A stretch of 17,582 nucleotides of DNA from an uncultured Bacillota bacterium. GTDB lineage: Bacteria; Bacillota; Sulfobacillia; UBA995; UBA9673. Shown here in pieces: positions 74-15,828 of the stretch (position 1 is the first letter of the stretch; each line of letters begins with the position of its first letter). The notes under the pieces are model-generated. The model ran no database searches and was not told where the DNA came from. It worked only from the letters and a program-made list of their open reading frames with translations. The stretch is taken from assembly GCA_937863905.1 (NCBI GenBank), contig CALMHV010000371.1:1-17582 (forward strand), in the 5' to 3' direction. The position numbers were made by a program, and so were the translations under genes.

Positions 74-514
74 CTAGCGCTGCTCGGGCGGCTCCGGGGA
101 GTCGGGGGGCTGGCCGGGATCCGGCTCAGTCTCCGTCGGGAGGCCCTTGGCCCGTAACTTGCGCTCCCTGACTCTCGCCTTTCGCTCGGCGCGCAACGCA
201 CGCTGCTGCTGCCCGCGCTCCTCCTCAATCTCCTCGAGCCGGAAGATGAGCATGTCCACGTTCTCCCGGTCCTGGAGGAGAGCGCCGTAGGCATCGATGT
301 TCGGCAGAAAGACACCGATGGCCGGAGAGACGATGTGGAGAGCGTTTCCGGCCAATCGGCTGAACGGCTTGTTCGACTCAAGGAAAATCATCGCCGGCGT
401 GGCCATTCCGGCTCTGGCAATCCTCTGGGCTACATCCTCAAGCATCTTGTCTCTCTGCTCCGGAGAGAACTCGTAGAGCGGCGGAACATGGTCACCCATG
501 CGATCGCCCTTCAT
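74..514 (-). CDS. Small charged protein with coiled-coil-like tail, paralogue of the preceding gene
   Basis: The function is not recognised. The protein has 146 residues. The conserved block AMIFLESNKPFSRLAGNALH (41-60), IVSPAIGVFLPN (61-72), LLQDRENVDMLIF (79-91) and LEEIEEERG (93-101) matches the preceding gene: shared AM, ES, P-SRL, ALH, P--G--L, DR-N and E-E-RG positions. The ending is different: a basic helix (QQQRALRAERKARVRERKLR) and an acidic Pro-rich tail. ATG at 514 follows GAGGTGA with suitable spacing, which decides the start over an ATG five codons later. It is the last gene visible. The 73 bases after it hold only small CCCG/CGGG and CCGC/GCGG hairpins and no further gene. A helper or adaptor role for the GlmL-like and barrel-sandwich proteins is an inference from position alone. 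Confidence 0.72.
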   Translation of the reverse strand: MKGDRMGDHVPPLYEFSPEQRDKMLEDVAQRIARAGMATPAMIFLESNKPFSRLAGNALHIVSPAIGVFLPNIDAYGALLQDRENVDMLIFRLEEIEEERGQQQRALRAERKARVRERKLRAKGLPTETEPDPGQPPDSPEPPEQR

Positions 515-563
515 GGTGGCTCACCTCACTTCCAGTCTTCTCTCGCGGGGCCTGGCTTTCCTG

Positions 564-968
564 TCACCGCTTGGGCCGGGCCGGGGCGCCTCGCCTTTCC
601 TCCAGCTCCTCCACCTTGTCCACGAAGCGCTCCAGATTGCCCCGGTCTTCGAGCAGACACGCCAAGTTCTGCAGACGCTGCTCACCCAGCAAGAGTCCGA
701 CGCTGGGAGTCAGAAAATGAAGGGCGTGCGACCCAAGGCGGCTCAAGGGTCTTGCGCTCTCGGCAATCAGCATGGCGGCGGAGCCGAGGCCCGTCCTCGA
801 CGCCTCCAGGGCCAGCGCATCCACGAGCACCCGTTCGCGGTCGCGACGCTCACTGTCCTCGCTGTCAATGAGCCGACCGGCCGCGTCCAACTCCGACCTG
901 AGAAACCCCCAGAAGCTTCGTCTCCTGTTGGCCGACGCGCCCGGCGTCGTCCGCTTCCCCGTTGCCAT
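564..968 (-). CDS. Small charged protein, paralogue of the next gene
   Basis: The function is not recognised. The protein has 134 residues: an Arg-rich N-terminus (about 1-50), then a conserved block AMLIAESARPLSRLGSHALH (65-84), the hydrophobic FLTPSVGLLLG (85-95), and CLLEDRGNLERF and VEELEERRG (104-127), probably a helix or short coiled coil. The block aligns with residues 41-101 of the following gene, so the two are related copies. The central hydrophobic part is too short and broken for a confident membrane helix but could bind a membrane or partner. ATG at 968 has only a G-rich region (GGCGGGGG) upstream, a weaker site than in neighbouring genes. It follows the barrel-sandwich gene by 111 bases with a hairpin between, and precedes its paralogue by 49 bases. 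Confidence 0.68.
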   Translation of the reverse strand: MATGKRTTPGASANRRRSFWGFLRSELDAAGRLIDSEDSERRDRERVLVDALALEASRTGLGSAAMLIAESARPLSRLGSHALHFLTPSVGLLLGEQRLQNLACLLEDRGNLERFVDKVEELEERRGAPARPKR

Positions 969-1030
969 TCCCGCACCCCCGCCGCGACTAGTGATGTCGT
1001 CTCTCAGGGCAAGGGTTCTCCGCCGACCTG

Positions 1031-1075
1031 GGGCTTATGTGGGGCGGGCCGTCGGAGGCGGCCGCGCCCCAGCCC
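1031..1075 (-). terminator. Strong hairpin just after the barrel-sandwich gene
   Basis: Starting 5 bases past the stop, TGGGGCG pairs with CGCCCCA and the inner GGCCG with CGGCC around the loop CCTCCGA, with one bulged C; an outer GGGCT/AGCCC pairing extends it. No T run follows. It may act as a weak terminator or reduce expression of the two small genes that follow. Confidence 0.4.
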
Positions 1076-1079
1076 ACGG

Positions 1080-2432
1080 CTAGAGAATCTCCAGGTTGGC
1101 GCGGGGGACAGTCACGCGACGGCCGTCCTCGAGTTCCACGATGGCCACCAGAGTCTTGCACTCGGTCTCGATGACCTGGGGCTCGCGCGGGAGTTCGGCC
1201 ACCGTGCCTTGGGCGCCAAAGTACGGGTCATTGATGACCCTGACGCCCAACCCCTTCAGAAGGTCTTCGTAGACTACTTCGTGCTGGTCGAGCGGGCCGG
1301 AGTAGTCGGCAAAGGGGATGACGATCTCGGGTCGGATGGCTCCGGCCCGGATCTGCGTCGCGCCGTTGATGCAGGCCAAGCGTCCTTCCATGGTCCGAAG
1401 GACGGAGAACGCCTCCGCCCGCATGTCAAGTTTCCCAAAACCCTCCATGAGGATGAGGGTCATCGGGATGTCTTCCTGTCCGGTGATACCGACGCCGAGC
1501 TTCACGCCGAGGGATTCGATCACGTTCAGATAGCTGGCTGTGCCGGCCACGATGCCGCGAGCTCCGGCCAGCAGCGCCGCGGCGATGGCCTCATTGGTGG
1601 CCATGGAGCCGCCGATGAGAATCTTGTCCGCGCAGTCCGGGGTGATGCGGTCGGGAGTCAGGACGTCGCCAGGGCCGTCGACCAGGACCTTGATCTCGCC
1701 GTGGCGCTCGCCTCCGACCCCGAAGATGCCGGTGAGCCGGATCCCGGGAGTCTCGACGACCGCCCCACGCTGGGGGATGAGCGAGGAGACCTTACCCAGC
1801 AGGTAGGCGGTGACCACAACCTCCTTGAAGGGCCTGGCGATGGTGACGAACCCCGACTGGTAGTTGATGTTGGTCACGACACCCGAGATGGGCGCCTTCG
1901 AGGTCCGGGTGTAGTAGGCGGCCATTTCGCCTTTCTTGCTGATGACCTCGCCGCGCTTGACCTCATCCCCGACCTTGCAGGTCATGAATTTCTCGAGGTC
2001 GCGCGGCCGGCAGCCAAGGTCGAAGGCGACGTCGAAGTCAACCGGCGGCTCCTCCTTACCGAAAGTCTCGCGGATGACCACGCGACCGGAACGATCGGAG
2101 ATGTCCTCGATGACACCATCGGTCGGGCAGGCCAGGTCCTTTGACCCGTAGAGACCGCCCGCAAGCCCTCGGGCAAAGACCTCTTTGATCTTCACCCGGT
2201 CGCCGACCTTCTTCAACATGCACTTGGAGAGGTCGGCGTCGGCGATGCCGATAAGCCTCGCCACCGGCACGACCCAAGGGATGCCGGGTCTCAGGCTGAT
2301 CTTGGCGACGGGGGTGGTCGGCTCCACCGACTGGCCATCCTCGACCAAGATCACTCCGGCCTGCGGGAGGATGCGCCTCTTGCGGATGAGCGCTATCCGC
2401 TCCTTAACGACGGACTCGACTGAGGAGACCAC
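1080..2432 (-). CDS. Protein with tandem barrel-sandwich-like repeats and KOW-like C-terminus, unknown function
   Basis: The function is not recognised. The protein has 450 residues from GTG 2432, which is favoured because AAGGGGGGT lies 7 bases upstream; ATG 2453 gives 457 residues with a poor site. An opening ILPQAGVILVEDGQSVEP resembles the start of lipoyl/biotinyl-type barrels. Two successive repeats follow: KVGDRVKIKEVFARG with CPTDGVIEDISDRSGRVVI (about 75-120), and KVGDEVKRGEVISKKG with APISGVVTNINYQSGFVTI (about 153-198). No biotin- or lipoyl-lysine motif is present. A middle domain contains TGIFGVGGERHGEI, GITGQEDIPMTLILMEGFG and CINGATQIRAGAIRPEI. The tail (GVRVINDPYFGAQGTVAEL onward) is KOW/SH3-like. 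It overlaps the GlmL-like gene by 29 bases, so the two products are probably made together and may interact. No membrane helix is seen. Confidence 0.8.
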   Translation of the reverse strand: MVSSVESVVKERIALIRKRRILPQAGVILVEDGQSVEPTTPVAKISLRPGIPWVVPVARLIGIADADLSKCMLKKVGDRVKIKEVFARGLAGGLYGSKDLACPTDGVIEDISDRSGRVVIRETFGKEEPPVDFDVAFDLGCRPRDLEKFMTCKVGDEVKRGEVISKKGEMAAYYTRTSKAPISGVVTNINYQSGFVTIARPFKEVVVTAYLLGKVSSLIPQRGAVVETPGIRLTGIFGVGGERHGEIKVLVDGPGDVLTPDRITPDCADKILIGGSMATNEAIAAALLAGARGIVAGTASYLNVIESLGVKLGVGITGQEDIPMTLILMEGFGKLDMRAEAFSVLRTMEGRLACINGATQIRAGAIRPEIVIPFADYSGPLDQHEVVYEDLLKGLGVRVINDPYFGAQGTVAELPREPQVIETECKTLVAIVELEDGRRVTVPRANLEIL

Positions 2433-4320
2433 CGCGCTTACCCCCCTTCTCATCCTGGGCGGCCACCGCGGCCGCGGCGACAGGGCTTTCCTCGACGTAC
2501 TTGCGGATGGCGTCCATCGGATAGGCGTCCATGGCCTGGATCCAGGTCACGAGTTTCTCCACGCGCCGCGAGTCGTCTGAAGGCAGAGCCAGCGGGCGGC
2601 CGCGGCAGTCGAGGACGATGCCGACGAGCCCGCCCTGGACCACCTGCGCCACAACCCGCTTCCCCTTGCCGGCGCCGAGATCGAGCGGGGCGACCGGCTC
2701 GGCGTCGACCGTGGCCGTCTCACCAACCCCCAACGGGATGCGCTTGATCTCCCCGAAAACCACCGCCTCGTCCACAACCCGCCCGTCGGGCATCGTGACC
2801 TTCACCTTCAGGGCCGGCTTACCGTCCCGACCGCTCCCGCTCGGCGCGATGCAGGTTCCCAGCCGTACGAGACAGTCCTTGTCAAAGACCTCGGCGGCGA
2901 TTTCCGGGTACTGGCTGGCGAGGACCCCGAGGTGGGGCATCATGAAGATGCTGTCGACCGCGAGTTGGCAGAAGCCCTCGGGTTGGAACGCATCCAGGAG
3001 CATCAGCGCGGCCTGGTTGCGGCGGGGGGCATGCGAGAGGACGCCACCACTGCCGACCAGGATGCCGAGTTTCTTCAAGTCGATGATCTCGGTCCCGAAG
3101 GATGACTTCACCGCGTCCTTCATGCTGCGCCAGACGACCGAGAGTTCCTCTTGCTCAATCTTCCGGGCTAGCTGCCGGTGGTGCTCGAAGGAGAGCCGCA
3201 GGGCCTCACGGGCCAGAGCCTGTTCTAGAATAAGGTTTGACAGCGTCTGAGGAATGGTCGTGGGACGGACCATCTTGTTGGAGATCCAATTGCTGAGGCC
3301 TTCCTTGTCCACTTCGAAAGGAACCCAGCGGCGGATGTTCTCGTAGCCGGCCTGTTCGTAGACGTTGCAGATGCTGTAGCTCATCCCCAAGTTGGCGCTG
3401 ACCGTCCGGGTAAACGTGCCGGAGAACTCGGAGAAGACGTCCGTGGTCGCCCCGCCGATGTCCACGCCGATAATCGTCGTCTTGTACTGCTTGGCCATCA
3501 CCTGCACGATGTACCCCACGGCGCCGGGGGTCGGCATGATGGTCGCGTCCACCCACTTCATGAGCTCGCCGTATCCCGGCGCCTGGGCCATGACGTGGTT
3601 CATGAACAGGTCGTGGATGGCCTCCCGGGCCGGCCCAAGGTTCTCGACGTCGGGGCGCGGCCGCACGTTTTCCACCATGTGGACCTCGATGATGCCCTCG
3701 CACACCGAGTCCACGATGTCGGCGGCGTCCTTGTTGCCCGCGAAGACCAGGGGCAGCTTGTACGTCGCGCCGAACCGCGGCTGTGGGTTCGCCTGGACAA
3801 TGGTCTCAGCCATGGCGGCTAGGTAGGAGACCGACCCGCCGTCCACGCCGCCGGACATAAGAATGATGTCGGGACGCAAATGGGTGATGCGCGTGATCTG
3901 TTCGGAAGTCGACCGGCCATCGTCGACGGCGATGACATCAAGAACGACAGCCCCGGCGCCCAGAGCCGCCCGATGGGCGCTGTCCGCGCTGATGTGCGTG
4001 ACCAGCCCGGCGACCATCATCTGGAGCCCGCCGCCGGCGCTGGACGTTGAGACGTAGTAGTCGACTCCCTTGTTGCCCTGTTTGGGACGCAAGAGATGGC
4101 CCTGGTCGTCCAGAATGGAGCGCTGGACGATCTCCTCGACCCGCTTGATGGACTTACGGACCCCAATCATCACGTTCTCCCACGGCGCCTCGACCGTGGT
4201 CGGCATCTCGCCTCGGGTGACAAGTCGATACTCATCGCCACGCTTCTCAATCAGAATCGCCTTTGTGGTTGTACTGCCAACGTCCGTGGCTAGTATCGAC
4301 TGCGGCTGGTTTGCGGCCAC
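2404..4320 (-). CDS. GlmL/MutL family ASKHA ATPase-like protein (glutamate mutase L homologue), C-terminally extended
   Basis: Belongs to the family of GlmL/MutL, a protein encoded with adenosylcobalamin glutamate mutase and thought to help reactivate it. The actin/Hsp70-like ATP site is complete: phosphate-1 loop ATDVGSTTTKA (11-21), connecting SGGVDGG (156-162), phosphate-2 loop GVDIGGATTDV (285-295) and adenosine loop GILVGSGGVLSHAP (419-432). STSSAGGGLQMMVAG (91-105) is typical of the family. At 638 residues it is clearly longer than the roughly 460-residue clostridial GlmL. The extra 150 or so residues (about 485-638) include a beta-rich part and a Lys/Arg-rich tail. No glmS, glmE or methylaspartase gene is in the window, so a mutase role is doubtful here. 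GTG at 4320 has GGAGG 7 bases upstream. Its end overlaps the next gene by 29 bases. Confidence 0.88.
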   Translation of the reverse strand: MAANQPQSILATDVGSTTTKAILIEKRGDEYRLVTRGEMPTTVEAPWENVMIGVRKSIKRVEEIVQRSILDDQGHLLRPKQGNKGVDYYVSTSSAGGGLQMMVAGLVTHISADSAHRAALGAGAVVLDVIAVDDGRSTSEQITRITHLRPDIILMSGGVDGGSVSYLAAMAETIVQANPQPRFGATYKLPLVFAGNKDAADIVDSVCEGIIEVHMVENVRPRPDVENLGPAREAIHDLFMNHVMAQAPGYGELMKWVDATIMPTPGAVGYIVQVMAKQYKTTIIGVDIGGATTDVFSEFSGTFTRTVSANLGMSYSICNVYEQAGYENIRRWVPFEVDKEGLSNWISNKMVRPTTIPQTLSNLILEQALAREALRLSFEHHRQLARKIEQEELSVVWRSMKDAVKSSFGTEIIDLKKLGILVGSGGVLSHAPRRNQAALMLLDAFQPEGFCQLAVDSIFMMPHLGVLASQYPEIAAEVFDKDCLVRLGTCIAPSGSGRDGKPALKVKVTMPDGRVVDEAVVFGEIKRIPLGVGETATVDAEPVAPLDLGAGKGKRVVAQVVQGGLVGIVLDCRGRPLALPSDDSRRVEKLVTWIQAMDAYPMDAIRKYVEESPVAAAAVAAQDEKGGKRGGLLSRVRR

Positions 4321-4496
4321 TTCGTCCCCTCCTTCTCTCTCGGATGTGACGCGTTCGCCGTCTTTAGCCCGGGACAGCTCGAAGGCCTAAGTCGGCCTGC
4401 GACAATGACGGAGGTGCGCAATTGGTTTCGCCCGATGGGAAGCGACTCAAGGGATGAAACCCCGCCCTTTCGGAAGGCGAAAAGTTCCCTCTAAGT
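4321..4496 (-). other. Possible structured leader of the GlmL-like gene
   Basis: This is the remainder of the largest gene-free gap (252 bases). A small hairpin sits at 4463-4479, and GGTTTC (4424-4429) can pair with GAAACC (4456-4461), closing a loop with an inner CCC/GGG pairing. A short GGCC inverted repeat lies near 4385-4398. I see no known riboswitch consensus and no convincing promoter. The gap ends with AAGGAGGGGACGAA before the GTG at 4320, a good ribosome-binding site with a 7-base spacer. Confidence 0.3.
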
Positions 4497-4545
4497 ACCC
4501 AAGGGGCGGGCCTGGTCCCTCCGGACCAGGCCCACCCCCCAAGGT
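4497..4545 (-). terminator. Strong hairpin between membrane genes and GlmL-like gene
   Basis: GGGCCTGGTCC (4508-4518) and GGACCAGGCCC (4523-4533) form a perfect 11-bp stem with a 4-base loop. A flanking GGGG (4503-4506) can pair with the C run at 4535-4540 to lengthen it. It begins about 28 bases past the stop of the 202-residue membrane protein. No clear T run follows on the minus strand, so it may be a non-canonical terminator, a pause site or a transcript-stabilising structure. Confidence 0.5.
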
Positions 4546-4572
4546 ACCGTACCGAACCCCAGCCGCTGAGGA

Positions 4573-5181
4573 CTAGCCCGTGTAACCCAGCCACTGGGTG
4601 ATGAGCATGTTAGCCCTCCCGAGGAAGAGGTTCCACCGGTAGAGGACCGTGTTGCCGAAGGCCGAGCCGAGGGCGATCATGATGTACCACTTGCCCACCT
4701 CGGCTATCCCGCCCACCACCGGGTTCTCCTTCGCTAGCGTGAAGAAGAAGTAGACCAGGGTGCAGAGTATACCGACGAAGATCAGTATGTTCTGCAGGGA
4801 GTTGAGGGCCACGAACGAGGCTGTGATCTGATTGAGCCACACCGCCGGCGTGAAAGCCAGCGTGTACCCGGTGCCGTACCCGACCCAGAAGGACATCGGG
4901 TACCTCGCGATCCAGGACAGCGACGGCACATACCGGAAGAAGATCAGCAGCCCGAGGATGATGGCCAGGACGTAGTGGTACTGCCCGTTCGTCCCGATCC
5001 ACTCAACGATCGCCGGTTTGATGTAGTTGAAGAAACTGTAGACGAACCAGTACGTCGTGGCGAGGCCGAGGAAGACGTTCTCCGCAATGCGGAAGATCGG
5101 GTTGTCCTTGTACAGATAGGTGTACACGGCCAAGGTGCAGATGGCCTGACACCAGATGCCCGGGTCTGACGTGATATGCAT
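4573..5181 (-). CDS. Six-helix integral membrane protein, unknown function
   Basis: The family is not recognised. The 202-residue protein has hydrophobic stretches at about 7-23, 33-53, 68-83, 96-115, 130-149 and 161-182, so around six helices. It is rich in Tyr, Trp and Phe. It has no obvious soluble domain. The segment YLYKDNPIFRIAENVFLG between helices 1 and 2, and KENPVVGGIAEVGKW between helices 5 and 6, share a K(D/E)NP start followed by a hydrophobic helix, which hints at internal duplication of two halves (inference, low certainty). ATG at 5181 lies about 13 bases after GGAGG, a longer spacer than its neighbours have. It is the last of four consecutive membrane genes and is followed after 35 bases by a strong hairpin, so it may end one transcription unit. 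Confidence 0.8.
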   Translation of the reverse strand: MHITSDPGIWCQAICTLAVYTYLYKDNPIFRIAENVFLGLATTYWFVYSFFNYIKPAIVEWIGTNGQYHYVLAIILGLLIFFRYVPSLSWIARYPMSFWVGYGTGYTLAFTPAVWLNQITASFVALNSLQNILIFVGILCTLVYFFFTLAKENPVVGGIAEVGKWYIMIALGSAFGNTVLYRWNLFLGRANMLITQWLGYTG

Positions 5182-5261
5182 AGCCTGTAGTTCACCTCCT
5201 CGCCAGTCTCAGAGAGACCGTGTTCAGCCTAAGCCAGCAGCGACCCCACTCAAGGGCCGCC

Positions 5262-6077
5262 CTACCTCTTCCGAGTGACATAGCCGATGTTTCCGAGAAC
5301 GATGAACAGCGCGACCATCAGGGCGATGACGGACATAGTATCCTGGCTCTTCAGAGCCGCGCCCGGACGACCCACCAGCTGTTCGTACTCGGCACCGCCG
5401 CGACTGCCGGCGATCATGCCGTTGTACTGCCCGGACTGGACATAGGTCATCGAGTCCGGAACGGACATCTGAATCTCACCGACGATAAGCTTGATGCTAG
5501 TCCCCTGCGTGATTATCTGCAGCCACTCAACCGCTCCCGGGGTTCCGCAGTCGAGGACCAGGACGGCCGCTATGTACTCCTGCGTCAGCCTCGGTACCGC
5601 CTGAATCAGCGGGAACTGGCCGATCGGGTCGTTGTTGAAATCCACGATGGCCGCGCCCGCCAAGTCGGTCTGGGCGGACTGCATCCACACCGAACCACCC
5701 GGCTTGGAGCCGAACTCGATGTAGTCGGTCCCGTAGACATAGTTGAACTCGGCCGCGATGGGAGTGATCATATCGTGAGCAATCGCGACGCCCAGCGTCC
5801 AGTTCGTGTTCCCGAGGATGATCTTGTACCCGCGCTCCATGCACTGATAGAGCATGGCCTTCAGCATCGGGTTGAGTTCACCCGCCGCGCCCGGGTCGTA
5901 CATCGGCGCTATCAAGACCACCGAGTTGTCGGGCAGGTTCTGGATGGCGTCATACGTCTGGACCGCCAGCGGGGAGACCTTAACAGGCAGGCCTAGCGGC
6001 ATGAATATGGTCACCGCAACGAGCGCCACCGAGATGAGATAGAGAAGCCGGCGATCGATCTTCATCAATCTTTCCAC
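5262..6077 (-). CDS. Membrane-anchored protein with large, probably extracytoplasmic domain
   Basis: The family is not recognised. Of 271 residues, helices lie at about 10-30 and 247-266, with a core of about 210 residues between. The N-terminus (MERLMKIDRR) and C-terminus (YVTRKR) are positively charged, so by the positive-inside rule both ends are cytoplasmic and the core faces outside. The core begins with a beta-strand/turn/helix pattern (NSVVLIAPMYDPG, then LKAMLYQCMERGYKIILGN) like an alpha/beta fold and has a Gly-rich segment GQYNGMIAGSRGGAEYEQL (216-234). That last segment resembles GSFQGMIQIGGTAMTAQL in the DUF6754-like protein. GTG at 6077 is chosen because AAGGAGGTG lies about 9 bases upstream; an ATG four codons later is too far from that site. 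It could be a substrate-binding or sensing part of the membrane complex. Confidence 0.8.
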   Translation of the reverse strand: MERLMKIDRRLLYLISVALVAVTIFMPLGLPVKVSPLAVQTYDAIQNLPDNSVVLIAPMYDPGAAGELNPMLKAMLYQCMERGYKIILGNTNWTLGVAIAHDMITPIAAEFNYVYGTDYIEFGSKPGGSVWMQSAQTDLAGAAIVDFNNDPIGQFPLIQAVPRLTQEYIAAVLVLDCGTPGAVEWLQIITQGTSIKLIVGEIQMSVPDSMTYVQSGQYNGMIAGSRGGAEYEQLVGRPGAALKSQDTMSVIALMVALFIVLGNIGYVTRKR

Positions 6078-6151
6078 GAATAGGCACCTCCTTCCGGAGA
6101 TGGACTTTCAAGCCACTGCGACTCATCCAACACGAGCAGCCTGTTCATACT

Positions 6152-6781
6152 CTACTGGGTCCCCGAGCCACCGATGTGGGCACGCTCGAGACCGAGCATA
6201 ATACGAAGGGCCGTGGCGAAACCGCCGACCGCGATTCCCAGGTTGATGCCGCGCATGCCGGCTACGTTCAATGTCCCCATGACCCACTTGCTGACGAAAG
6301 CACTCCAGTTACCCCAGATGGCATCACCGATCGGAGCACGCCCGAGCATCACGAAGAGAGCGCAGACCAGTAGAATCGTCGCTTCCTTCGTCCGAATCCG
6401 GAACGCTCGGTAAGCCGCCGAGGTGATGAAGAACGCAACCAGGGAGAACATGGTCGCGCTCAGCGGAGACATCGCGTTGACGTAGATCCAGTCGAACTGC
6501 AGCCCGTTCTGGGTCTGAATCATACCCAGCACGAGATAGGCGTACATGCAGAGAAGCAGGACGATGCTGTAGAACCAACCTTCCCGCTTGCGTTGGATGT
6601 ACTTAACGTGAATCACGGTCAGGTTGACGAAGCCCAGGGCCAAAGCGATGGCATAGCTGATCTGGAACCAGTTGTTCAGCGGCTCCATCAAGTTCCACTT
6701 CTGACCCAGGAAGAAGTACGTCGAGAACACCACAACCAGGGAGGAGATGACTGTCAGGATCATTGGACCCTCTTTACGCAT
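6152..6781 (-). CDS. Six-helix integral membrane protein, unknown function
   Basis: The family is not recognised. The 209-residue protein has hydrophobic segments at about 7-26, 40-60, 69-89, 102-125, 133-148 and 178-197, so about six membrane helices with short loops. The longest loop (149-177, APIGDAIWGNWSAFVSKW) has aromatic and polar residues that may lie at the membrane surface. Positive clusters follow helix 2 (HVKYIQRKREG) and helix 4 (RAFRIRTKE), which places those loops inside. There are no transporter signature motifs that I can name. ATG at 6781 is preceded by AAGGAGGTG with a 7-base spacer from GGAGG, a near-ideal site. It lies between the two proteins that carry a helix at each end; a six-helix protein of similar size (202 residues) occurs two genes downstream, so the pair may form the membrane core of a complex. 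Confidence 0.8.
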   Translation of the reverse strand: MRKEGPMILTVISSLVVVFSTYFFLGQKWNLMEPLNNWFQISYAIALALGFVNLTVIHVKYIQRKREGWFYSIVLLLCMYAYLVLGMIQTQNGLQFDWIYVNAMSPLSATMFSLVAFFITSAAYRAFRIRTKEATILLVCALFVMLGRAPIGDAIWGNWSAFVSKWVMGTLNVAGMRGINLGIAVGGFATALRIMLGLERAHIGGSGTQ

Positions 6782-6845
6782 CTAGACACCTCCTTTTCGC
6801 AACGACTGCCCCTTCCGCGGCGAACCCTTACGTGCATGTCGTGAC

Positions 6846-7673
6846 CTAGTACCCGCCGAGGATGTCTCTGAGGACCGTGCTGTCCGGCGAGACCGTGGCG
6901 AGAACCGCCCCCACCACGATGATCAGGGCGAGGACGATCTTCAACCAGTCCTGGGCAACGACCGTGCCGTACATGACCGGCTCCTTGGAGAGGTACGCGC
7001 TTGCGGCGTAAATCTCTTCGCCGATCAGGGAGTAGTCGCAGGCGGCCACAAAGAACGGCAGCTGCGCGGTCATGGCCGTTCCGCCGATCTGGATCATCCC
7101 TTGGAACGAACCGGTTTCAGCCAGCATCATGGCCTCGGCGTAGAACGCGCCGATCATGATGTTCGCCGCAGGACGCTCGCGCTCGAAAATACCGATGACG
7201 GCGCCGGTGAACGCGAACTGCTCCGCCGACAGGAAGCGGATGTCGTCCGGGTTGAAGGCATCGGGACGACCCTCTTCGAGATAGGCCTGACGCGTGATTT
7301 CTTCAATCACGGCGTACGGAAGCGGGTCGCAGTTCAGAGCGAGGAACCGGGTATCATAGCGGGCGCACTGACGGGCGATATGGCTGACCATTCCGAACGC
7401 AGCCAGAGTTTGTGGGTTGTCAACGCTAAGGATACCCGGGATGAACACGACCGGACGGCCCATTTCCGTGGCACGGCCTATGGCCTCGTCGACGGCCTCG
7501 AGCCCGGCGATCTTCTTGATCTCGGGGATCTTGCGACCCGTACGAGCGCGGGCCACCATGACCCAGATGATCACGCCGAGCCCCAGGACAATGGCGAAGT
7601 CGATGACCGAACCCGCTGAGAAGATTCCCAACGTGGGCACGGGGGCTTGCTCCTGAGCTAGCAACCACATCAT
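6846..7673 (-). CDS. DUF6754-like membrane protein with a helix at each end
   Basis: A 275-residue protein with hydrophobic helices at about 23-41 and 245-262 around a soluble core of about 200 residues. The core (from GLEAVDEAIGRATEMGRP through VVFIPGILSVDNPQTLAAFG and SLIGEEIYAASAYLSKEP) looks like the DUF6754 family as I remember it; function unknown. Positive residues directly after helix 1 (ARARTGRK) predict the core in the cytoplasm and both ends outside. The start is ATG at 7673. A GTG at 7685 lies inside the AGGAGGTGAG ribosome-binding site itself and is unlikely to be used. A second ATG follows immediately. It heads a run of four membrane proteins with gaps of 64-80 bases, each with its own GGAGGTG site. 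It shares size, layout and a short motif with the 271-residue protein two genes downstream. Confidence 0.82.
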   Translation of the reverse strand: MMWLLAQEQAPVPTLGIFSAGSVIDFAIVLGLGVIIWVMVARARTGRKIPEIKKIAGLEAVDEAIGRATEMGRPVVFIPGILSVDNPQTLAAFGMVSHIARQCARYDTRFLALNCDPLPYAVIEEITRQAYLEEGRPDAFNPDDIRFLSAEQFAFTGAVIGIFERERPAANIMIGAFYAEAMMLAETGSFQGMIQIGGTAMTAQLPFFVAACDYSLIGEEIYAASAYLSKEPVMYGTVVAQDWLKIVLALIIVVGAVLATVSPDSTVLRDILGGY

Positions 7674-7884
7674 ATGTTGTCTCACCTCCTGGACCTAGAG
7701 TTCTTGCTATGCGCTACACCCCGCGGGAGCCGGAAGGGTTTTACTCCCTCGGAGCTATAGCCAGCCAGACAGACTGAGATGGACTAGAAACTGCTATGGT
7801 ACGACAGTCCTTTTCGGCGGAGTCGGTTCTCCTCCTCCTCCAGAGGCCACTTTTTATCTGGTTCCCGCTTCCCGGCCGTGCGAG
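7674..7884 (-). other. Leader region before the DUF6754-like gene
   Basis: This 211-base gap holds no convincing gene. It contains a GGAGGAGGAGGAG stretch (about 7830-7842), which heads only a tiny open frame and is probably not a gene. Near 7724-7757 a GGGAG element can pair either with CTCC just upstream or with CTCCC just downstream, an arrangement that could act as an alternating leader. I see no clear sigma-70 promoter; TATAGC near 7755 lacks a good -35 partner. The region ends in a strong CAGGAGGTGAG ribosome-binding site. Confidence 0.3.
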
Positions 7885-8376
7885 CTAGGTCTGGCCGGCC
7901 GGCTGGTCGAGCGTCCCGATGCGCTGGCGGATGAGATCCAACACCTGTTCGCGGTTTGAGGGACCGAAGTAGAGCATGAGTCCCTTGAGGTAGCGCATGC
8001 GCATGTCGGTGGGGCGGAGGTGGAGGTAGACTCCGTCGTCGAAGAGGCGGTACTCATCGAAGTCCTGCCAACGGAACCCCTCGCGTGAGAAGAAGACAAC
8101 CTGGCACGCCTTCTTGTTGGTCAGAACGAAACCCTGCGGGAAGTAGACCGGCGCGAGAGCCCCGCCGAGAAGGAGCACGGCCAGAATCACGTAGATGGCC
8201 GAGCCGAACGCGAACCACACCAAGACCAAGCCGACCAGCGTGGCCGCCACCCCAGCCAGAAAGGTCTTCGGTTTGCGCCGCATCAAGGAGCTCGACCACT
8301 TGAGAAGCGTGACCTCCGGAGCGAAGGCTCCGGACTTCGGCGGCTGCTCTCCCGCTTTGGGCTTGTCCTTGGTCAT
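7885..8376 (-). CDS. Two-helix membrane protein with PH-like soluble C-terminal domain
   Basis: I do not recognise a named family. The 163-residue protein has a charged, Pro-rich N-terminus, then two adjacent hydrophobic helices at about 39-57 and 60-79 that could form a hairpin in the membrane. A soluble tail of about 80 residues follows. The tail's pattern (FVLTNKKACQVVFF, then GFRWQDFDEYRLFDDGVYL, then RYLKGLMLYFG, then a final helix EQVLDLIRQRI) resembles bacterial PH-like domains found on small membrane proteins; this is an inference from pattern. ATG at 8376 follows GGAGGT with a 5-base spacer, which decides the start although the frame stays open to 8595. It lies 133 bases after the DUF4438 gene and leads into the membrane block, so it could belong to either group. 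A role in assembling or tethering a membrane complex is possible. Confidence 0.75.
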   Translation of the reverse strand: MTKDKPKAGEQPPKSGAFAPEVTLLKWSSSLMRRKPKTFLAGVAATLVGLVLVWFAFGSAIYVILAVLLLGGALAPVYFPQGFVLTNKKACQVVFFSREGFRWQDFDEYRLFDDGVYLHLRPTDMRMRYLKGLMLYFGPSNREQVLDLIRQRIGTLDQPAGQT

Positions 8377-8509: not shown

Positions 8510-9424
8510 TCAGGCTGGAAACTCGCTTTCCGGACGGAGGCCGAGAAGGACCGCCACGTTGGCCTTCGGGTCCAGCCTCGGCTCAATCTCCCCATGATTG
8601 GCGGTCAACAGGGTCGTGACCCCAGGTCCATGACCGGCGATCTTTGAATCGCTGTGGATGATGACGCCGATGATGACCGCGCCACGCCGGTAGCTTCGAC
8701 CATAGAACGAAGAAGCGTCGCGGATGGCCACGAGATCGCCGAACCGCAGCTTGTCCAGACCCAGCTTGACCAGGACCGGGGGATCCTGGGTCGTGATGTC
8801 GTAGTCGCCGCTGTGAGCCGTGCTGGCCCCGAGCCCCGAACCCATCAGGACCGCAGGCACTTCGGCCACGACGGGGACGGAAAGCTTGGCCTTGCGTCCC
8901 CGCCCCGCCGCGGCACCCGTGACCTCGATGTCCATTCGCTCGAAGAGGTCCGGGTCAAGGTTCATGACCTTCACCTCGGGGAAATCGGTAATCTCAAGCC
9001 CCTGTCCGGCCGCCCGGACCAGAATCTTGTCGCCGATGGCCAGCTTTTCGAGAATCGACGGCGCAAAATCGATGATGACATGCTCGATACCACCATGCTT
9101 GCCGGTCACGACACCGCTCGACCCCTTGGCCTCGCCCGAAACCACGACCGCCCGGTTCCCGACGCAGGCCAGAGTGTTGTAGGCCGTGTTGACCGCCTCA
9201 TCCTTGTCCTTGCTGCTGACGCCTGGCTCCACGTGGTCGCCGGCCCAGCCGTAGACGGTGTCGCCGACGCGCACGTTGTAGACGATGCCGCCCGTGGCCG
9301 GGCTGACCCGCGCCACGCCGTCGTACCCCACGCGGTACGAGGTCCGCATCACGGGCGCGGAGACCTCGCCTTGGACCGAGATGGTCACGATCCTGTCCCT
9401 GTTGGTCCGGACCTTCAAGTCCAT
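8510..9424 (-). CDS. DUF4438 domain-containing protein
   Basis: A 304-residue soluble protein that I recognise as the DUF4438 family; its biochemical role is unknown to me. Notable conserved-looking segments are GDTVYGWAGDHVEPGVS (54-70), NTLACVGNRAVVVSGEAKGS (83-102), GKHGGIEHVIIDF (108-120), GDKILVRAAGQGLEI (132-146), AHSGDYDITTQDP (204-216) and HGPGVTTLLTANHGEIEPR (262-280). The many Gly, His and Asp residues would suit a metal- or ligand-binding enzyme, but no catalytic residue can be named. No signal peptide or membrane helix is seen. ATG at 9424 follows AGGAGG with a 5-base spacer, a strong site. It closes the peptidase block and is followed by a small GC-rich hairpin. Its position right after the M55 gene suggests a role in the same peptide pathway. 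Confidence 0.85.
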   Translation of the reverse strand: MDLKVRTNRDRIVTISVQGEVSAPVMRTSYRVGYDGVARVSPATGGIVYNVRVGDTVYGWAGDHVEPGVSSKDKDEAVNTAYNTLACVGNRAVVVSGEAKGSSGVVTGKHGGIEHVIIDFAPSILEKLAIGDKILVRAAGQGLEITDFPEVKVMNLDPDLFERMDIEVTGAAAGRGRKAKLSVPVVAEVPAVLMGSGLGASTAHSGDYDITTQDPPVLVKLGLDKLRFGDLVAIRDASSFYGRSYRRGAVIIGVIIHSDSKIAGHGPGVTTLLTANHGEIEPRLDPKANVAVLLGLRPESEFPA

Positions 9425-9472
9425 CCCCTCCTCCTTCGACTCGCAGAGGGTCGATTGTCCCCCTTGCGTCTT

Positions 9473-10339
9473 TTACGAGCCCACGCTCCTGGCCATGGTG
9501 ATCATGACCCGCATGGCCTGGAAGGCCGCGATGTAGTCGTCGTGGGTGAACGAGACCGCTGAGGGGCCGACGGCCTGGGCGCCGGGAACCATCAGGGCGG
9601 CCCCGGCCATGGCCGTGCTGTTGAAGTCGAGTTCGATGGTCACCGGGCGCGGCGGGACGAGGGGTCGGAGTTCGCCGACGAGGCCGAGGGCCTCAGCCGC
9701 CGCCTCCTGGATTTCAGCGTTGGCCTCCTCGAGGGAAAGACAGCGGGCCGCGAAACGACCCACGGGTTCCTTCACGGCGATGGCCTTGATGCCCGGCAAG
9801 ACGGCCGAGGCCTCGGACACCGTCTCGGAGTCGCCCGTGATGAGAAGGATCGGGACGTTGTAGTACCCCGCGATGAAGGCGTTCAGCAGGGTCTCCCCGG
9901 CGGGCTGGCCGTTGATGCGGAGTTCACGGATGGTGTCGGAGGAGTAGGTGTGATTGAGAACGCCCGGCGTGCCGTTCCGGGAATGGTAGCCCACGAAGAA
10001 GGCGCCGTCGAAGCCGTCGGCCACCCCCTGCATCATACTCAGGGGCTTCGGCGAGCCGGTGAGGAGTTGGGCCCCCGAATGGAGTTCCTCGATAAGGATG
10101 TTGCGCCCCCCACCATGGCTGTCGTTGATGAGGATGATGTCGGCCCCGCCCTGGATCGCGCCGGAGACGGCGGCGCTCACCTGACGGGTCATCAGGCGGC
10201 GAGCGCGGGCGTATTCCTCGCCCTGGCCGGGACCGGTGTGGTCGCCGTGAACCACGCCGCTGATGCCCTCGATGTCGCAGGAAATGAAGATGCGCTGGAG
10301 CTTGTGGGGCCTGATGTCGGACTTGAAGTCGCTGGCCAT
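9473..10339 (-). CDS. M55 family metallopeptidase, D-aminopeptidase (DppA-like)
   Basis: Zinc D-aminopeptidase family typified by Bacillus subtilis DppA, which cleaves D-Ala-containing dipeptides. The expected ligands appear in order with DppA-like spacing: D22 and E24 in SCDIEGISGV, H75 in INDSHGGGRN, H119 in VGYHSRNG, and E149 in GQPAGETLLN. H130 in VLNHTY matches the catalytic His115 of DppA. Length 288 is normal, with about 14 extra residues before the usual IFISCDIEG start. ATG at 10339 has GAGGAG 8 bases upstream. In B. subtilis dppA sits with an ABC dipeptide transporter; no such transporter is visible here. It precedes the DUF4438 gene by 48 bases. The family call is firm; D-Ala-D-Ala as the substrate is an inference. 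Confidence 0.93.
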   Translation of the reverse strand: MASDFKSDIRPHKLQRIFISCDIEGISGVVHGDHTGPGQGEEYARARRLMTRQVSAAVSGAIQGGADIILINDSHGGGRNILIEELHSGAQLLTGSPKPLSMMQGVADGFDGAFFVGYHSRNGTPGVLNHTYSSDTIRELRINGQPAGETLLNAFIAGYYNVPILLITGDSETVSEASAVLPGIKAIAVKEPVGRFAARCLSLEEANAEIQEAAAEALGLVGELRPLVPPRPVTIELDFNSTAMAGAALMVPGAQAVGPSAVSFTHDDYIAAFQAMRVMITMARSVGS

Positions 10340-10372
10340 GGTCCTGGCTCCTCTCTTGTGGCGAGTCGCGTC

Positions 10373-11395
10373 CTAGCGGGACTTCCGGATCTCGAAGACC
10401 GCTTCCGTGTAGCCGACGTTCTCCCCGCGGTTGTTGATGTTGGCCGGCCGCCGGAACGGCTCGAGGGCCGCCGCCGCCTCGGCCGAGAGAAGGCCGAGTT
10501 GCTCTAAGACGCGGACGGCTGTCGGGTGGGTCCCCCGGGCGTTGCCGTCGTCGATCTTCAGGGCCACGCCCAGGCTTCGCCCGGGAATACCGAAGCAGTA
10601 GACGCCCTCGGCGCCGCTCTTGGCGACGACGGGCGTCGCCCTCATGAGCGCCGTGCACAGGCGGCCCGTGCCGCCGACCATCTCCGGATAGGCCCGCATG
10701 GAGCGAGCCACGAGTCGCGCCGCCGCGGCTCGCTCGGGCGAGAAAGCCGACCGCGGGTCTTCCGGGTTGGCCAGTCGAGCGAAGGCCTGGGCCATGTTCC
10801 GCAAGGGCAGAGCGAAGACCGAGACCCCGCACCCGTCCGTGGCCGTGCCCATCTTGTCGATGGGGTAGCCGGCCACCGCCGCCACATTCTCGCGGCAAAG
10901 GCGCTGGAGCGGGTGCTCGCGGCGCCAGTAGTCTTCGAGAGTCCAGCCCATTTGCCTGGCTACGGCCAGCATACCGGAATGCTTCCCCGAGCAGTTGCAG
11001 TGGACGGACGTCGGCGAGCGCCCCTCGCGCACCAGGGCTTGGGCCGATGGGCCATGCGTCGGAAGATGGGTCCCGCACCGCAGGTGGGTTTCGTCGAGGC
11101 CCACCTTGGCCAGAATCCCCAGAACGTTCTCGACGTGGTCGGGCTCGGAACTGTGGGACGCGCACACGACGGCCAATTCCCGTTCGGTGAGCCCGTAGGT
11201 CGCGTAGGCTCCAGACTCGATGACGGCCAGGGCCTGGATGGGTTTGGCCGCGCTACGCATGAACGTGTAGTAGTCCGGGTCGCCCACGGCGGCCACGACC
11301 GAGCCGGCCGTATCGACGACGGCGATGCTGCCGCGGTGGAGGCTCTCGACATAGTCACCGCGCCAGACCTTCACGAGGATCTCCGACTCAGGCAT
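10373..11395 (-). CDS. Asparaginase family protein (asparaginase II, Rhizobium etli ReAII type)
   Basis: Cytoplasmic L-asparaginase of the serine-lysine class (PF06089), unrelated to the E. coli AnsA/AnsB fold; it hydrolyses asparagine to aspartate and ammonia. The two Ser-Lys centres are visible: RSAAKPIQ supplies S48 and K51, and CASHSSE supplies S80, with K259 the likely partner of S80. HCNCSGKHSGM (C135, K138) and ATDGCGV (C189) match the zinc-site residues as I recall them from ReAII, at essentially the same numbering. Length 340 is normal for the family. ATG at 11395 has GGGAGAG about 5 bases upstream. It lies 33 bases upstream of the M55 peptidase gene, within the same likely transcript. 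True preference for asparagine over another amide substrate cannot be read from the sequence. Confidence 0.92.
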   Translation of the reverse strand: MPESEILVKVWRGDYVESLHRGSIAVVDTAGSVVAAVGDPDYYTFMRSAAKPIQALAVIESGAYATYGLTERELAVVCASHSSEPDHVENVLGILAKVGLDETHLRCGTHLPTHGPSAQALVREGRSPTSVHCNCSGKHSGMLAVARQMGWTLEDYWRREHPLQRLCRENVAAVAGYPIDKMGTATDGCGVSVFALPLRNMAQAFARLANPEDPRSAFSPERAAAARLVARSMRAYPEMVGGTGRLCTALMRATPVVAKSGAEGVYCFGIPGRSLGVALKIDDGNARGTHPTAVRVLEQLGLLSAEAAAALEPFRRPANINNRGENVGYTEAVFEIRKSR

Positions 11396-11437
11396 TCTCG
11401 CTCTCCCTTGGGTGCGCCGCGGTTCTCGTCCGGACGC

Positions 11438-12478
11438 TCAAACCCGGCCGTGACGGCGCAGGATACTGATGACTTCCTCTATCGGCAAAGCCTCCCGGAC
11501 ATGCCCGTCGCGCCCGGCCATCGTCTCGGCGGCGAAGAGGGCGTTGACGATGGCCTCCTCGGTGGCTTCGACGGCGGCCTCGAAAAGGGGCCCGAAATGG
11601 CGATCATCCTCGGCCAGAGCGTAGCGGACCAGGACGGGCTCGCTGGGGAAGGCCGGCTCGAGGCCGGCGGTGCTGAAAGCCAGGACGAAGTCCCCGCTGC
11701 CGTGAGCCCCCACGGAACCCGTGCGGGCCAGACCCAGGGCCGCCCGGCGCGAAACGCGCGTGAGCTGCCGCGAGGTCAGCGGGGCATCGGTGGCCAGGAC
11801 GATCATAATGGACCCACCGGGGAGTTGGTCCGGCTCCTCAGCGGCGACAAGGTCGCGGCCCACCGGGACACCATCCAGACGGAAGTCGGCCCGGCGGCCG
11901 AAGTTGGCCAGCACCAGACAGCCAAGAGTGAAGCGGGCGCCGGGCGCGCTTTCGGGCCCCGCCGGCCGCGCTCCGAAGGTGACCTGGCGCGAAGCCGTCC
12001 CCAGGCCGCCCTTGAACCCGAGGCAGGACATGCCGGTCCCGGCCCCCACGTTGCCTTCGGGCACGGGGCCCGGCGCCGCAAGGCGCAGAGCCTCCAGGCA
12101 ATCGGCCTCGGTCACGTGCCGGCCGCGGATGTCGTTAAGATAGGCGTCGGAACACTCGCCGACGACCGGGTTGACTGTTCCCGCGGTGAGGCCGATGTCC
12201 GGGTTCTCGGCCAGGGCCCGGGTGACCAGGGCGTTGGCGGCGGTGAAGACGCTCAGGGTGTTGGTGAGCAGGATGGGGGTCTCCAGGACGCCGAGTTCCC
12301 CCAGTTGGACGAGGCCAAGGCTCTTGCCGTACCCGTTGAAGACGAAGGACGCCGCCCGCGGCCTCTCCCGATAGAGGTTCCCTGGGTGGGGCACCACGGC
12401 CGTGACGCCGGTCCGGACGACGGGGAAGGCGGCCGCCGCACGCGGGTCAGGCGAAGTCTCGCCCCGGTTCAAGGTCAC
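11438..12478 (-). CDS. P1 family (DmpA/BapA-type, S58) N-terminal-nucleophile aminopeptidase
   Basis: A self-processing aminopeptidase family whose characterised members (DmpA, BapA) release N-terminal D-amino acids, glycine or beta-amino acids. Coordinates run from the first ordinary in-frame start, GTG at 12478 (346 residues). Seen: VNPVVGECSDAYLND (102-116), GNVGAGTGMSCLGFKGG (142-158), VLANFGRRADFRLDGVP (189-205) and QLPGGSIMIVLATDAP (218-233). By analogy with DmpA the Gly222/Ser223 bond is the autocleavage site and Ser223 the new N-terminal nucleophile. The conserved family N-terminus is encoded further upstream in the same frame (12479-12583), so GTG 12478 probably gives a truncated model; that extension is described as a separate feature. 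Cytoplasmic, as no signal peptide is seen. It lies 42 bases upstream of the asparaginase gene. Family call is firm, the start is not. Confidence 0.88.
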   Translation of the reverse strand: MTLNRGETSPDPRAAAAFPVVRTGVTAVVPHPGNLYRERPRAASFVFNGYGKSLGLVQLGELGVLETPILLTNTLSVFTAANALVTRALAENPDIGLTAGTVNPVVGECSDAYLNDIRGRHVTEADCLEALRLAAPGPVPEGNVGAGTGMSCLGFKGGLGTASRQVTFGARPAGPESAPGARFTLGCLVLANFGRRADFRLDGVPVGRDLVAAEEPDQLPGGSIMIVLATDAPLTSRQLTRVSRRAALGLARTGSVGAHGSGDFVLAFSTAGLEPAFPSEPVLVRYALAEDDRHFGPLFEAAVEATEEAIVNALFAAETMAGRDGHVREALPIEEVISILRRHGRV

Positions 12479-12597
12479 GTGACCGACAAGGACGCCGGGA
12501 ACATCGGTGATGGCGTTCAGCGGGCCGCAGGGAAGGCGGCCAAGCGAGATGCCGGCGTCTCTGGCGCGCGGTCTCCGACCCGTAGGGTGAGCCCCCT
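12479..12597 (-). other. In-frame upstream coding extension of the P1 peptidase, with possible ACG start at 12583
   Basis: Translated in the peptidase frame, this stretch encodes RARDAGISLGRLPCGP followed by LNAITDVPGVLVGHVTL, which is the hallmark N-terminus of P1/DmpA peptidases. The frame is closed upstream by TGA at 12598-12600, and no ATG, GTG or TTG lies between that stop and GTG 12478. The ACG codon at 12583 is preceded by AAAGGGGG with an 8-base spacer and would add 35 residues, giving about 381 in total, close to DmpA's length. A CTG at 12520 is a weaker alternative. Either a non-standard start is used, or the start has been mutated, or the assembly has an error here. Confidence 0.72.
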
Positions 12598-12623
12598 TTC
12601 AACACTCGCGGCCGCGGCGAGCC

Positions 12624-13430
12624 TCAGCCTTCGCGGTAGCGCGCGGCGGCCTCCACGAGGCCGGCGAAGAGCTTCAGGAACACGGGCTCCGTGGCCCAAA
12701 GGTTTTCGGGATGCCACTGGACGCCGAAGGCGAAGCCGGTCCCGCGTCCCGCGGGACCGGCGGAGGCCCCGGGCCTCTGGCCCATCCCCGCCAGCTCGAT
12801 GGCTTCGATCACGCCGTCCGGGGCGACGGCCGAAACCCGGTAGCCTTGCGGCATCCGGGAGATGGCCTGGTGGTGGAAGGAGTTCACTTTGAGCGGGCCG
12901 GACCCGAGCCGTTCCGCCAGAAGGGTGTCCCGCTCCACCTCCACCAAGTGCGTCCGGGCGTCGCGCGGGGCTTCCTGCAAGTGCTTGAGGCAACCGGGTT
13001 TCTGGCTGGGCAAGTCCTGGTAGAGAGCGCCCCCGGCGGCCACGGCCAGGATCTGGATGCCGCGGCAGATGCCGAAGACGGGGAGGCCCTTGGCCAGGGC
13101 CACCCGGACGAGGGCCAACTCGAAACGGTCGCGGGGAGGTTCGAGCTTGCCCAGGGCCGGGATGGGACCTTCGCCGAAGAACTCGGGGTCGAGGTCGAAC
13201 CCTCCCGGGACCAGCAGCCCGTCGATGGTCTCGAGGCTGTCGGCGGCGAGCGAGGCCGCGACGGCCTCAGCTTCCCGCGCCAGCCCGTGGCGGATCCGGT
13301 AGGGGATGGGCAGGACGAGCGGCAGCCCGCCCGCTTCCTCCACGCCCCCGCTGTAGTCCAGGCCCAACCTGGCAAAACGAAGTTCTCCCTCGATGACCAA
13401 ACCGCAGGTTATGCCGATGCGCGGTCTCAC
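12624..13430 (-). CDS. Gamma-glutamyl-gamma-aminobutyrate hydrolase family protein (peptidase C26)
   Basis: A class-I glutamine-amidotransferase-like hydrolase of the PuuD/C26 group, which cleaves gamma-glutamyl amide bonds. The family opening RPRIGITCG is present, followed by Y26 and the oxyanion-type segment LLVPGGFDLDP (72-82). The nucleophile elbow GICRGIQIL contains C122, and VQWHPENLW gives the His240/Glu242 pair; these match Cys114, His222 and Glu224 of E. coli PuuD. KVNSFHHQAI (181-190) is also typical. Length (268) is normal. The start is GTG at 13430, only 4 bases after the previous stop, with GGGAGAGG about 10 bases upstream. The natural substrate is unknown; putrescine-pathway partners are not seen here, so hydrolysis of gamma-glutamyl peptides released by the neighbouring peptidases is as likely as GABA production. 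Confidence 0.9.
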   Translation of the reverse strand: MRPRIGITCGLVIEGELRFARLGLDYSGGVEEAGGLPLVLPIPYRIRHGLAREAEAVAASLAADSLETIDGLLVPGGFDLDPEFFGEGPIPALGKLEPPRDRFELALVRVALAKGLPVFGICRGIQILAVAAGGALYQDLPSQKPGCLKHLQEAPRDARTHLVEVERDTLLAERLGSGPLKVNSFHHQAISRMPQGYRVSAVAPDGVIEAIELAGMGQRPGASAGPAGRGTGFAFGVQWHPENLWATEPVFLKLFAGLVEAAARYREG

Positions 13431-13434
13431 AGGG

Positions 13435-15746: not shown

Positions 15747-15828
15747 GGTCTTGATGTCGCCTCCTAAACTCGTGTCTGGTCAGGCTCAGCCACCCGGCGG
15801 CGCCACGCCGCGACGGGCGCCTCCCGGT

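Follow-up and report, generated by a model that had tools for sequence, protein, structure and literature searches.

The stretch of DNA analysed here (the window) is the entire 17,582-nucleotide (nt) contig CALMHV010000371.1 of an uncultured Bacillota bacterium of the class Sulfobacillia (GCA_937863905.1), whose genome (G000) is a 1.94 Mb assembly of 452 contigs and is 93% complete. Positions 74–8376 encode a small membrane protein called PH-like in a preliminary description of this DNA, four further membrane proteins (DUF6754, TM6a, EA2 and TM6b), a long GlmL-like ASKHA ATPase homologue, a barrel-sandwich protein (BSH) and two small proteins, S2 and S1 (Table 1). They include two modules, the GlmL-BSH pair (module A, with the PH-like gene and S proteins at its locus) and the four-gene membrane cassette DUF6754-TM6a-EA2-TM6b (module B, 4573–7685), whose order is constant wherever it is complete, and genomes with one module almost always have the other. 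We rate this two-module system as categorically new as a system.

Table 1. Genes and gene blocks of the window
Feature	Position	Strand	Description
PH-like small membrane protein	7885–8376	−	First gene of the PH-GlmL-BSH-S-GlmL-BSH locus; name from the preliminary description
DUF6754 (PF20539)	6846–7685, likely start 7673	−	Helix, putative cytoplasmic Rossmann-like domain, helix
TM6a	6152–6781	−	Six hydrophobic segments, both ends probably inside
EA2	5262–6077	−	Helix, putative extracytoplasmic Rossmann-like domain, helix
TM6b	4573–5181	−	Six or seven hydrophobic segments
Long GlmL-like ASKHA ATPase homologue	2404–4320	−	638 amino acids, C-terminal extension of ~150 residues
BSH (barrel-sandwich)	1080–2453, likely start 2432	−	Barrel-sandwich-like segments, conserved middle region, KOW-like end
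S2 small protein, S1/S2 family	564–968	−	Homology to S1
S1 small protein, S1/S2 family	74–514	−	Homology to S2
DUF4438	8510–9424	−	Between M55 and PH-like gene; homologue of Thermotoga TM1086 (structures 3dcl, 3n99)
Upstream block	9473–17580	−	Nnr, alanine racemase, pyridoxal-phosphate enzyme, peptidase C26, peptidase S58, asparaginase II, D-aminopeptidase M55 (Pfam)

The single strand, short gaps and gene overlap of the preliminary description were all found: from PH-like to S1 in gene order the gaps are 199, 64, 74, 80, 252, −50, 111 and 49 nt, of which the 252 nt between TM6b and GlmL are the sole real break in the array, and the 50-nt overlap of GlmL and BSH becomes 29 nt with the BSH start at 2432 that relatives suggest. 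Consistently strong ribosome-binding sites had also been described; Shine-Dalgarno-like sequences are clear 5′ of DUF6754 (start 7673), TM6a, EA2, TM6b and GlmL, and less clear 5′ of S2 and BSH.

Searches covered genomes of the window's own phylum and 14 named control genomes. Genes in fetched loci were called with a composition-based script, which misses some genes and starts, and the metagenome-assembled genomes are incomplete. Of 67 groups of called genes, 53 held the full series DUF6754-TM6a-EA2-TM6b in that order; the remaining 14 groups lie in 11 loci, eight of which were re-read in six frames, and every cassette proved complete and ordered in seven of these (L036, L059, which holds two adjacent cassettes, L068, L069, L071, L074 and L076). 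The cassettes in L047, L054 and L073, which were outside the re-reading, run to the contig end. A decayed cassette, with DUF6754 readable, TM6a truncated and EA2 and TM6b unmatched, was seen at L056 9696–10794.

PF20539 is present in 18 of 41 relatives, and 16 of the 199 phylum genomes searched had a match to the DUF6754 profile. Carriers have 1 to 27 matches each (27 in G020, a 450-contig assembly with 6% contamination; 11 in G148, some of them fragments; 9 in G034) and the window's own genome has one; high copy numbers of this kind are seen in transporters and receptors. Among 8000 candidates scored, 6249 clusters were DUF6754 homologues at E ≤ 0.001, and of the few names given among the best 120 homologues per search, almost all denoted Bacillota under its present or an older name. 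No DUF6754 was found in the 14 control genomes, on PLSDB plasmids or in INPHARED phages. The cassette is often solitary: 16 of 51 upstream neighbours and 20 of 45 downstream neighbours lie on the other strand, counts that leave out eight loci in which the class-type GlmL comes after the cassette.

Module A contains a GlmL-like protein of the MutL family (PF13941; 404.7 bits against a Pfam cut-off of 27, E = 6e-121), as its earlier assignment to ASKHA-type ATPases had it. The protein scores below the NCBIfam cut-offs for GlmL (NF040745, 223 against 475), Or-4 (NF040744, 207 against 600) and the GlmL subfamily (169 against 204). The motifs DIGGATTD and GSGG..SHAPR, which we take to be the ATP-site motifs of the MutL family, were invariant across 19 sequences. 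BSH gave a weak RnfC_N match (20.4 bits against a Pfam cut-off of 25.6) and resembled GcvH, biotin-carrier and SPT5/NusG KOW domains weakly, never better than E 0.016; for the tandem barrel-sandwich repeats described before, the support consists of weak matches of this kind.

The pairing of GlmL and BSH is nearly invariant. In the retained loci, 52 of 52 called BSH genes that have an upstream gene lay directly 3′ of a same-strand GlmL-like gene, often with an overlap, and three more BSH genes lie at locus or contig ends. The GlmL upstream of BSH was 595–672 amino acids (aa) long in 46 of the 52; other MutL matches were open frames mostly of 440–570 aa. When the phylum tables were compared by hand, a MutL match stood just upstream in 27 of 31 clear BSH loci, downstream in three (G069 C34, G111 C75 and G111 C118) and nowhere adjacent in one (G000 C76, L090). 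Gene calling overlooked the BSH of L090 and, in L086, a divergent GlmL-BSH pair; both were recovered by six-frame reading.

Coupling of the cassette to GlmL-BSH is well supported and rests on genome counts. Among the relatives, BSH was found in 18 of 18 cassette genomes against 4 of 23 others (Fisher p = 5e-8, phi 0.82), and in the phylum set in 14 of 16 against 2 of 183 (Fisher p = 1e-17, phi 0.86), tests made without kinship correction; the control gene DUF4438, from the same locus, was more loosely associated in the phylum set (12 of 16 against 17 of 183, phi 0.51). The four cassette-less relatives with BSH are G001, G015 and G036, whose contigs break in the locus (L087, L084 and L085, respectively), and G022, which has a divergent pair only. 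Both modules are missing from G006 and G007, which belong to the same family as the cassette-bearing G004 and G005. BSH carriers without a cassette in the phylum set are G048 and, at E 4.5e-4, G055.

G048 offers a natural loss. Its locus (L100) is collinear with that of G197 (L061), a genome of the same genus, and the pieces flanking the gap are 75–84% identical on one side and 74–78% on the other. Where G197 has S1 and the whole cassette (9178–12475), G048 has ~25 bases, and its GlmL is 469 aa long against 601 aa in G197, a block of ~125 residues being gone with the reading frame still open. We read the event as a loss in G048 and not a gain in G197, because G222 and G168 have the arrangement of G197. 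Shortening of GlmL in this single event is what would be expected if GlmL decays after the cassette is lost.

The position of the cassette relative to GlmL-BSH varies. It sits inside the PH-GlmL-BSH locus in the window's family and several others, and GlmL-BSH follows it directly at 13 loci, 10 in the window's class (window included) and three outside; outside the class, the cassette precedes a single GlmL-BSH in G168, G197 and G222. A PH-GlmL-BSH-S-GlmL-BSH locus without a cassette was found in G021, G027, G032, G033, G034 and G037, and a PH-S-GlmL-BSH locus without a cassette in G012 (all within L091–L097); these seven genomes have 1 to 9 cassette matches elsewhere. The fixed set of seven to nine genes envisaged earlier must therefore be given up, since the cassette is self-contained, often repeated and usually away from GlmL, and GlmL-BSH, a separate pair with one to several copies in a genome, stands at the same locus without it in related genomes. 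As to the single machine that had been proposed, co-occurrence and the one natural absence argue for joint working, of two modules and not of one operon.

The first membrane protein is a member of DUF6754 (PF20539; 312.7 bits against a Pfam cut-off of 27, E = 2e-93), a Pfam domain of uncharacterised function. Apart from it, the membrane parts fit no known family or solved structure in the searches made. In Pfam, EA2 and TM6b matched nothing at E up to 1 and TM6a gave chance-level matches under the cut-off. Against the PDB, profiles of the four cassette proteins gave a best E of 0.45 and the DUF6754 protein as a single sequence a best E of 0.18. A known complex, recognised by sequence or fold, was considered and rejected (PDB profiles at E ≥ 0.45; Foldseek with the DUF6754 and EA2 models, no match at E ≤ 0.001). 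The earlier statement that no known transporter, secretion or signalling component is present agrees with the Pfam, NCBIfam, PDB and PADLOC searches, in the last of which none of eight window proteins (S1 left out) matched a defence protein at E 0.01.

Two six-helix proteins had been described. TM6a has six hydrophobic segments (hydropathy and loop charges, 41 sequences), with both termini probably inside; TM6b has six as well, and its stretch 86–131 may conceal a seventh. In structure models the domains of DUF6754 and EA2 appear Rossmann-like and are predicted to lie on opposite membrane faces, that of DUF6754 cytoplasmic and that of EA2 extracytoplasmic. VIA-align gave general Rossmann matches for both models, RCK domains among them, and the DUF6754 model resembles RCK/KtrA ligand-binding domains and NAD(P)-binding folds. 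No homology was detected with hhalign between DUF6754 and EA2 (probability 3.9) or between TM6a and TM6b (probability 2.1); the common architecture of DUF6754 and EA2 is thus read solely from the order of secondary structures and the common fold matches. Mean identity is 0.49 for DUF6754, 0.38 for TM6a, 0.37 for TM6b and 0.35 for EA2, DUF6754 being the most conserved subunit in 493 of 496 pairs. EA2 was the least conserved in 276 of the 496 pairs. This pattern would be expected of an inner part that contacts a shared partner and a variable outer part. The analysis supports the parts list of the preliminary description: a membrane core with domains on each of its faces, together with an ATP-binding-type protein and an adaptor.

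We tentatively favour the reading that the cassettes are a transporter family of interchangeable units served by a shared cytosolic GlmL-BSH ATPase, and every step from co-occurrence to a transport role for the cassette is one that we infer. Each cassette would carry solutes across the membrane, most likely importing amino acids, peptides or similar small nitrogenous compounds. In it TM6a and TM6b would form the membrane path, EA2 would expose a domain for ligand binding on the outer face, and the inner domain, that of DUF6754, would bind a nucleotide or a ligand. GlmL-BSH would be the shared cytosolic unit, binding ATP, docking through its barrel-sandwich arms on the DUF6754 side and powering, gating or assembling whichever cassettes the cell carries. 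With a shared ATP-using unit, cassettes would accompany GlmL-BSH in the genome yet need not adjoin it; a transporter family would also be consistent with divergent repeats, with units that stand alone, with two multi-helix subunits and with a domain on each membrane face. For nutrient uptake we count a peptide- and amino-acid-fermenting probable carrier and the window's block of peptide and D-amino-acid enzymes as suggestive support. The carriers probably include Candidatus Fermentithermobacillus carboniphilus, after which the BSH homologue P0125 is named, both P0125 and the DUF6754 homologue P0104 presumably lying on its closed genome. This organism is a predicted peptide and amino-acid fermenter (PMC10215811); the portions of that paper available list ABC peptide transporters and mention nothing resembling the two-module system.

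Several observations weigh against this reading. Transport, ATP hydrolysis and contact between the modules are all putative. In the one-contig genome G134, a complete but divergent cassette occurs with three MutL genes of ordinary length and no BSH match, and G058, 78% complete, has a cassette and neither a BSH nor a MutL match. Copies of GlmL-BSH do not follow cassette number: the window's own genome has one cassette and four BSH genes, one of them without GlmL. The neighbours of scattered cassettes are diverse, and peptidases and amidohydrolases, a class picked post hoc from lists of 25 families, accounted for at least 12 of the 85 genes adjoining cassettes and for at least 4 of the 100 genes far from them. 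No riboswitch of known ligand and no T-box directly before a cassette was found in 54 sources at gathering scores, nine cassette loci being outside these sources.

The main rival, unlikely in our view, is a sensor, in which EA2 would bind an outside ligand, the membrane pair would transmit and DUF6754 would pass the state to GlmL-BSH as a nucleotide-dependent switch. Domains on both faces would suit a receptor, receptor families likewise reach tens of copies, and the RCK/KtrA likeness of DUF6754 and a cyclic di-AMP riboswitch two genes 5′ of a cassette in L052 (12424–12618) point the same way; however, two multi-helix subunits per unit would be costly for a receptor, and no output domain or regulator dominates among the neighbour families listed.

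Less probable still, the long GlmL-BSH would activate a cytosolic enzyme or serve as its repair chaperone, and would be linked to the cassette only through shared lifestyle or descent. The namesakes GlmL and Or-4 accompany amino-acid mutases (NCBIfam names), which are linked to B12, and GlmL-BSH pairs also occur away from cassettes. Glutamate mutase E (PF06368), however, was unmatched in the window's own genome (93% complete) and absent among the window neighbours, and this genome has a separate, short Or-4-like MutL on contig C30; the co-occurrence is also tighter than that of DUF4438, and the G048 case speaks against a link of this indirect kind.

A redox or ion pump like Rnf/Nqr or a biotin-dependent decarboxylase, with BSH as a peripheral part, TM6a and TM6b as the ion path and Rossmann domains binding nicotinamide, is very doubtful. 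The weak resemblance of BSH to RnfC, NqrA and biotin-carrier domains and that of DUF6754 to NAD(P)-binding folds would fit it, but TM6a and TM6b matched no Rnf/Nqr membrane family in Pfam at E up to 1, neither an Fe-S nor a flavin family turned up in the Pfam scan of window proteins, a count as high as 27 matches in one genome is unlike a bioenergetic complex, and the second barrel-sandwich hairpin has no fixed Lys, the window protein having Arg there (position by eye). Equally hard to credit is an envelope assembly or export machine, whose cassettes would export or fold particular envelope molecules: peptidase M23 is found in 4 of 117 scanned neighbours and an FtsW/RodA-type gene in one locus, but such neighbours are few and the commonest next-door families listed are not envelope ones.

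If the transporter reading is true, uncultured Bacillota fermenters depend on a whole class of membrane machines of which the family libraries searched see nothing beyond the name DUF6754, and a GlmL-type ATPase gains a testable partner; because the system is modular and one genome offers a natural loss, its function is directly testable.

The small proteins S1 and S2 are related, as had been described (35% identity, E = 7e-19), and S-type genes recur next to GlmL-BSH or the cassette in relatives' loci. S1 had no Pfam match even at E up to 1, and S2 matched at chance level under the cut-off. The PH-like gene is present, and its homologues hold the same position in loci with and without a cassette; its label found no support in Pfam, where no match exceeded the cut-off. 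Upstream, the block of peptide and D-amino-acid enzymes is partly retained before the PH-GlmL-BSH locus in relatives, and diadenylate cyclase-, YbbR-, GlmM- and GlmS-like genes lie beyond it in L081–L083 (by eye). No paper naming DUF6754 or DUF4438 was found in the literature searched.

The window's own genome has additional GlmL-BSH pairs on contigs C41 and C194. One long pair (L089 7570–12753) lies between electron-transfer-flavoprotein-like genes and two ABC exporter-like genes (by eye), and the BSH relative without a preceding GlmL (L090 7502–9067) lies where a contig ends and has a pyruvate-ferredoxin-oxidoreductase-like gene upstream (by eye). A short Or-4-like MutL (L101 8363–9628) lies close to the end of a contig; the genes with it resemble those for ornithine carbamoyltransferase and carbamate kinase (by eye), and the neighbourhood is probably an ordinary ornithine pathway. 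In G033 the first GlmL (L097 5260–7190) spans two overlapping reading frames and is either broken or misassembled. Three relatives have an amidohydrolase-like gene (by eye) immediately after their second BSH (L078 15261–16433, L079 2051–3223 and L080 930–2087). One genome that consists of a single contig and is without BSH has a complete but divergent cassette (L068 8513–11286) immediately before tsaE-, tsaB-, rimI- and tsaD-like genes (by eye), and tsa-like genes are also found near the core locus in L057, L103 and L104. Group II intron matches occur near cassettes at L030 3139–3449 and L038 618–684.

Compared with known systems, the DUF6754 and EA2 models align with RCK domains, as in the gating domains of KtrAB, TrkA and MthK, but Rossmann folds align broadly, pore homology was not found and one of the two domains is predicted to be outside. 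BSH may share with Rnf/Nqr an RnfC_N-like segment, matched below the cut-off; the cassette membrane subunits match no Rnf/Nqr family, and the cassette is multi-copy. GlmL and Or-4 belong to the same ASKHA ATPase family (PF13941), whose presumed ATP-site motifs the window protein keeps, whereas the latter is ~150 residues longer, scores under the NCBIfam cut-offs and is normally followed by BSH, without an adjoining mutase subunit. We think it unlikely, though worth stating, that the cassettes are a new transporter class with an ASKHA-fold in place of a P-loop ATPase, in which one GlmL-BSH motor would serve up to 27 interchangeable four-subunit cassettes with a Rossmann-like domain on each side. 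Group II energy-coupling factor (ECF) transporters differ from the present system in having a P-loop ABC ATPase (ABC_tran was unmatched in the ten window proteins scanned with Pfam) and in lacking four-subunit cassettes, and homology to them was not found; yet the logic proposed here, in which one soluble ATP-using unit would be shared by several interchangeable membrane units, resembles theirs.

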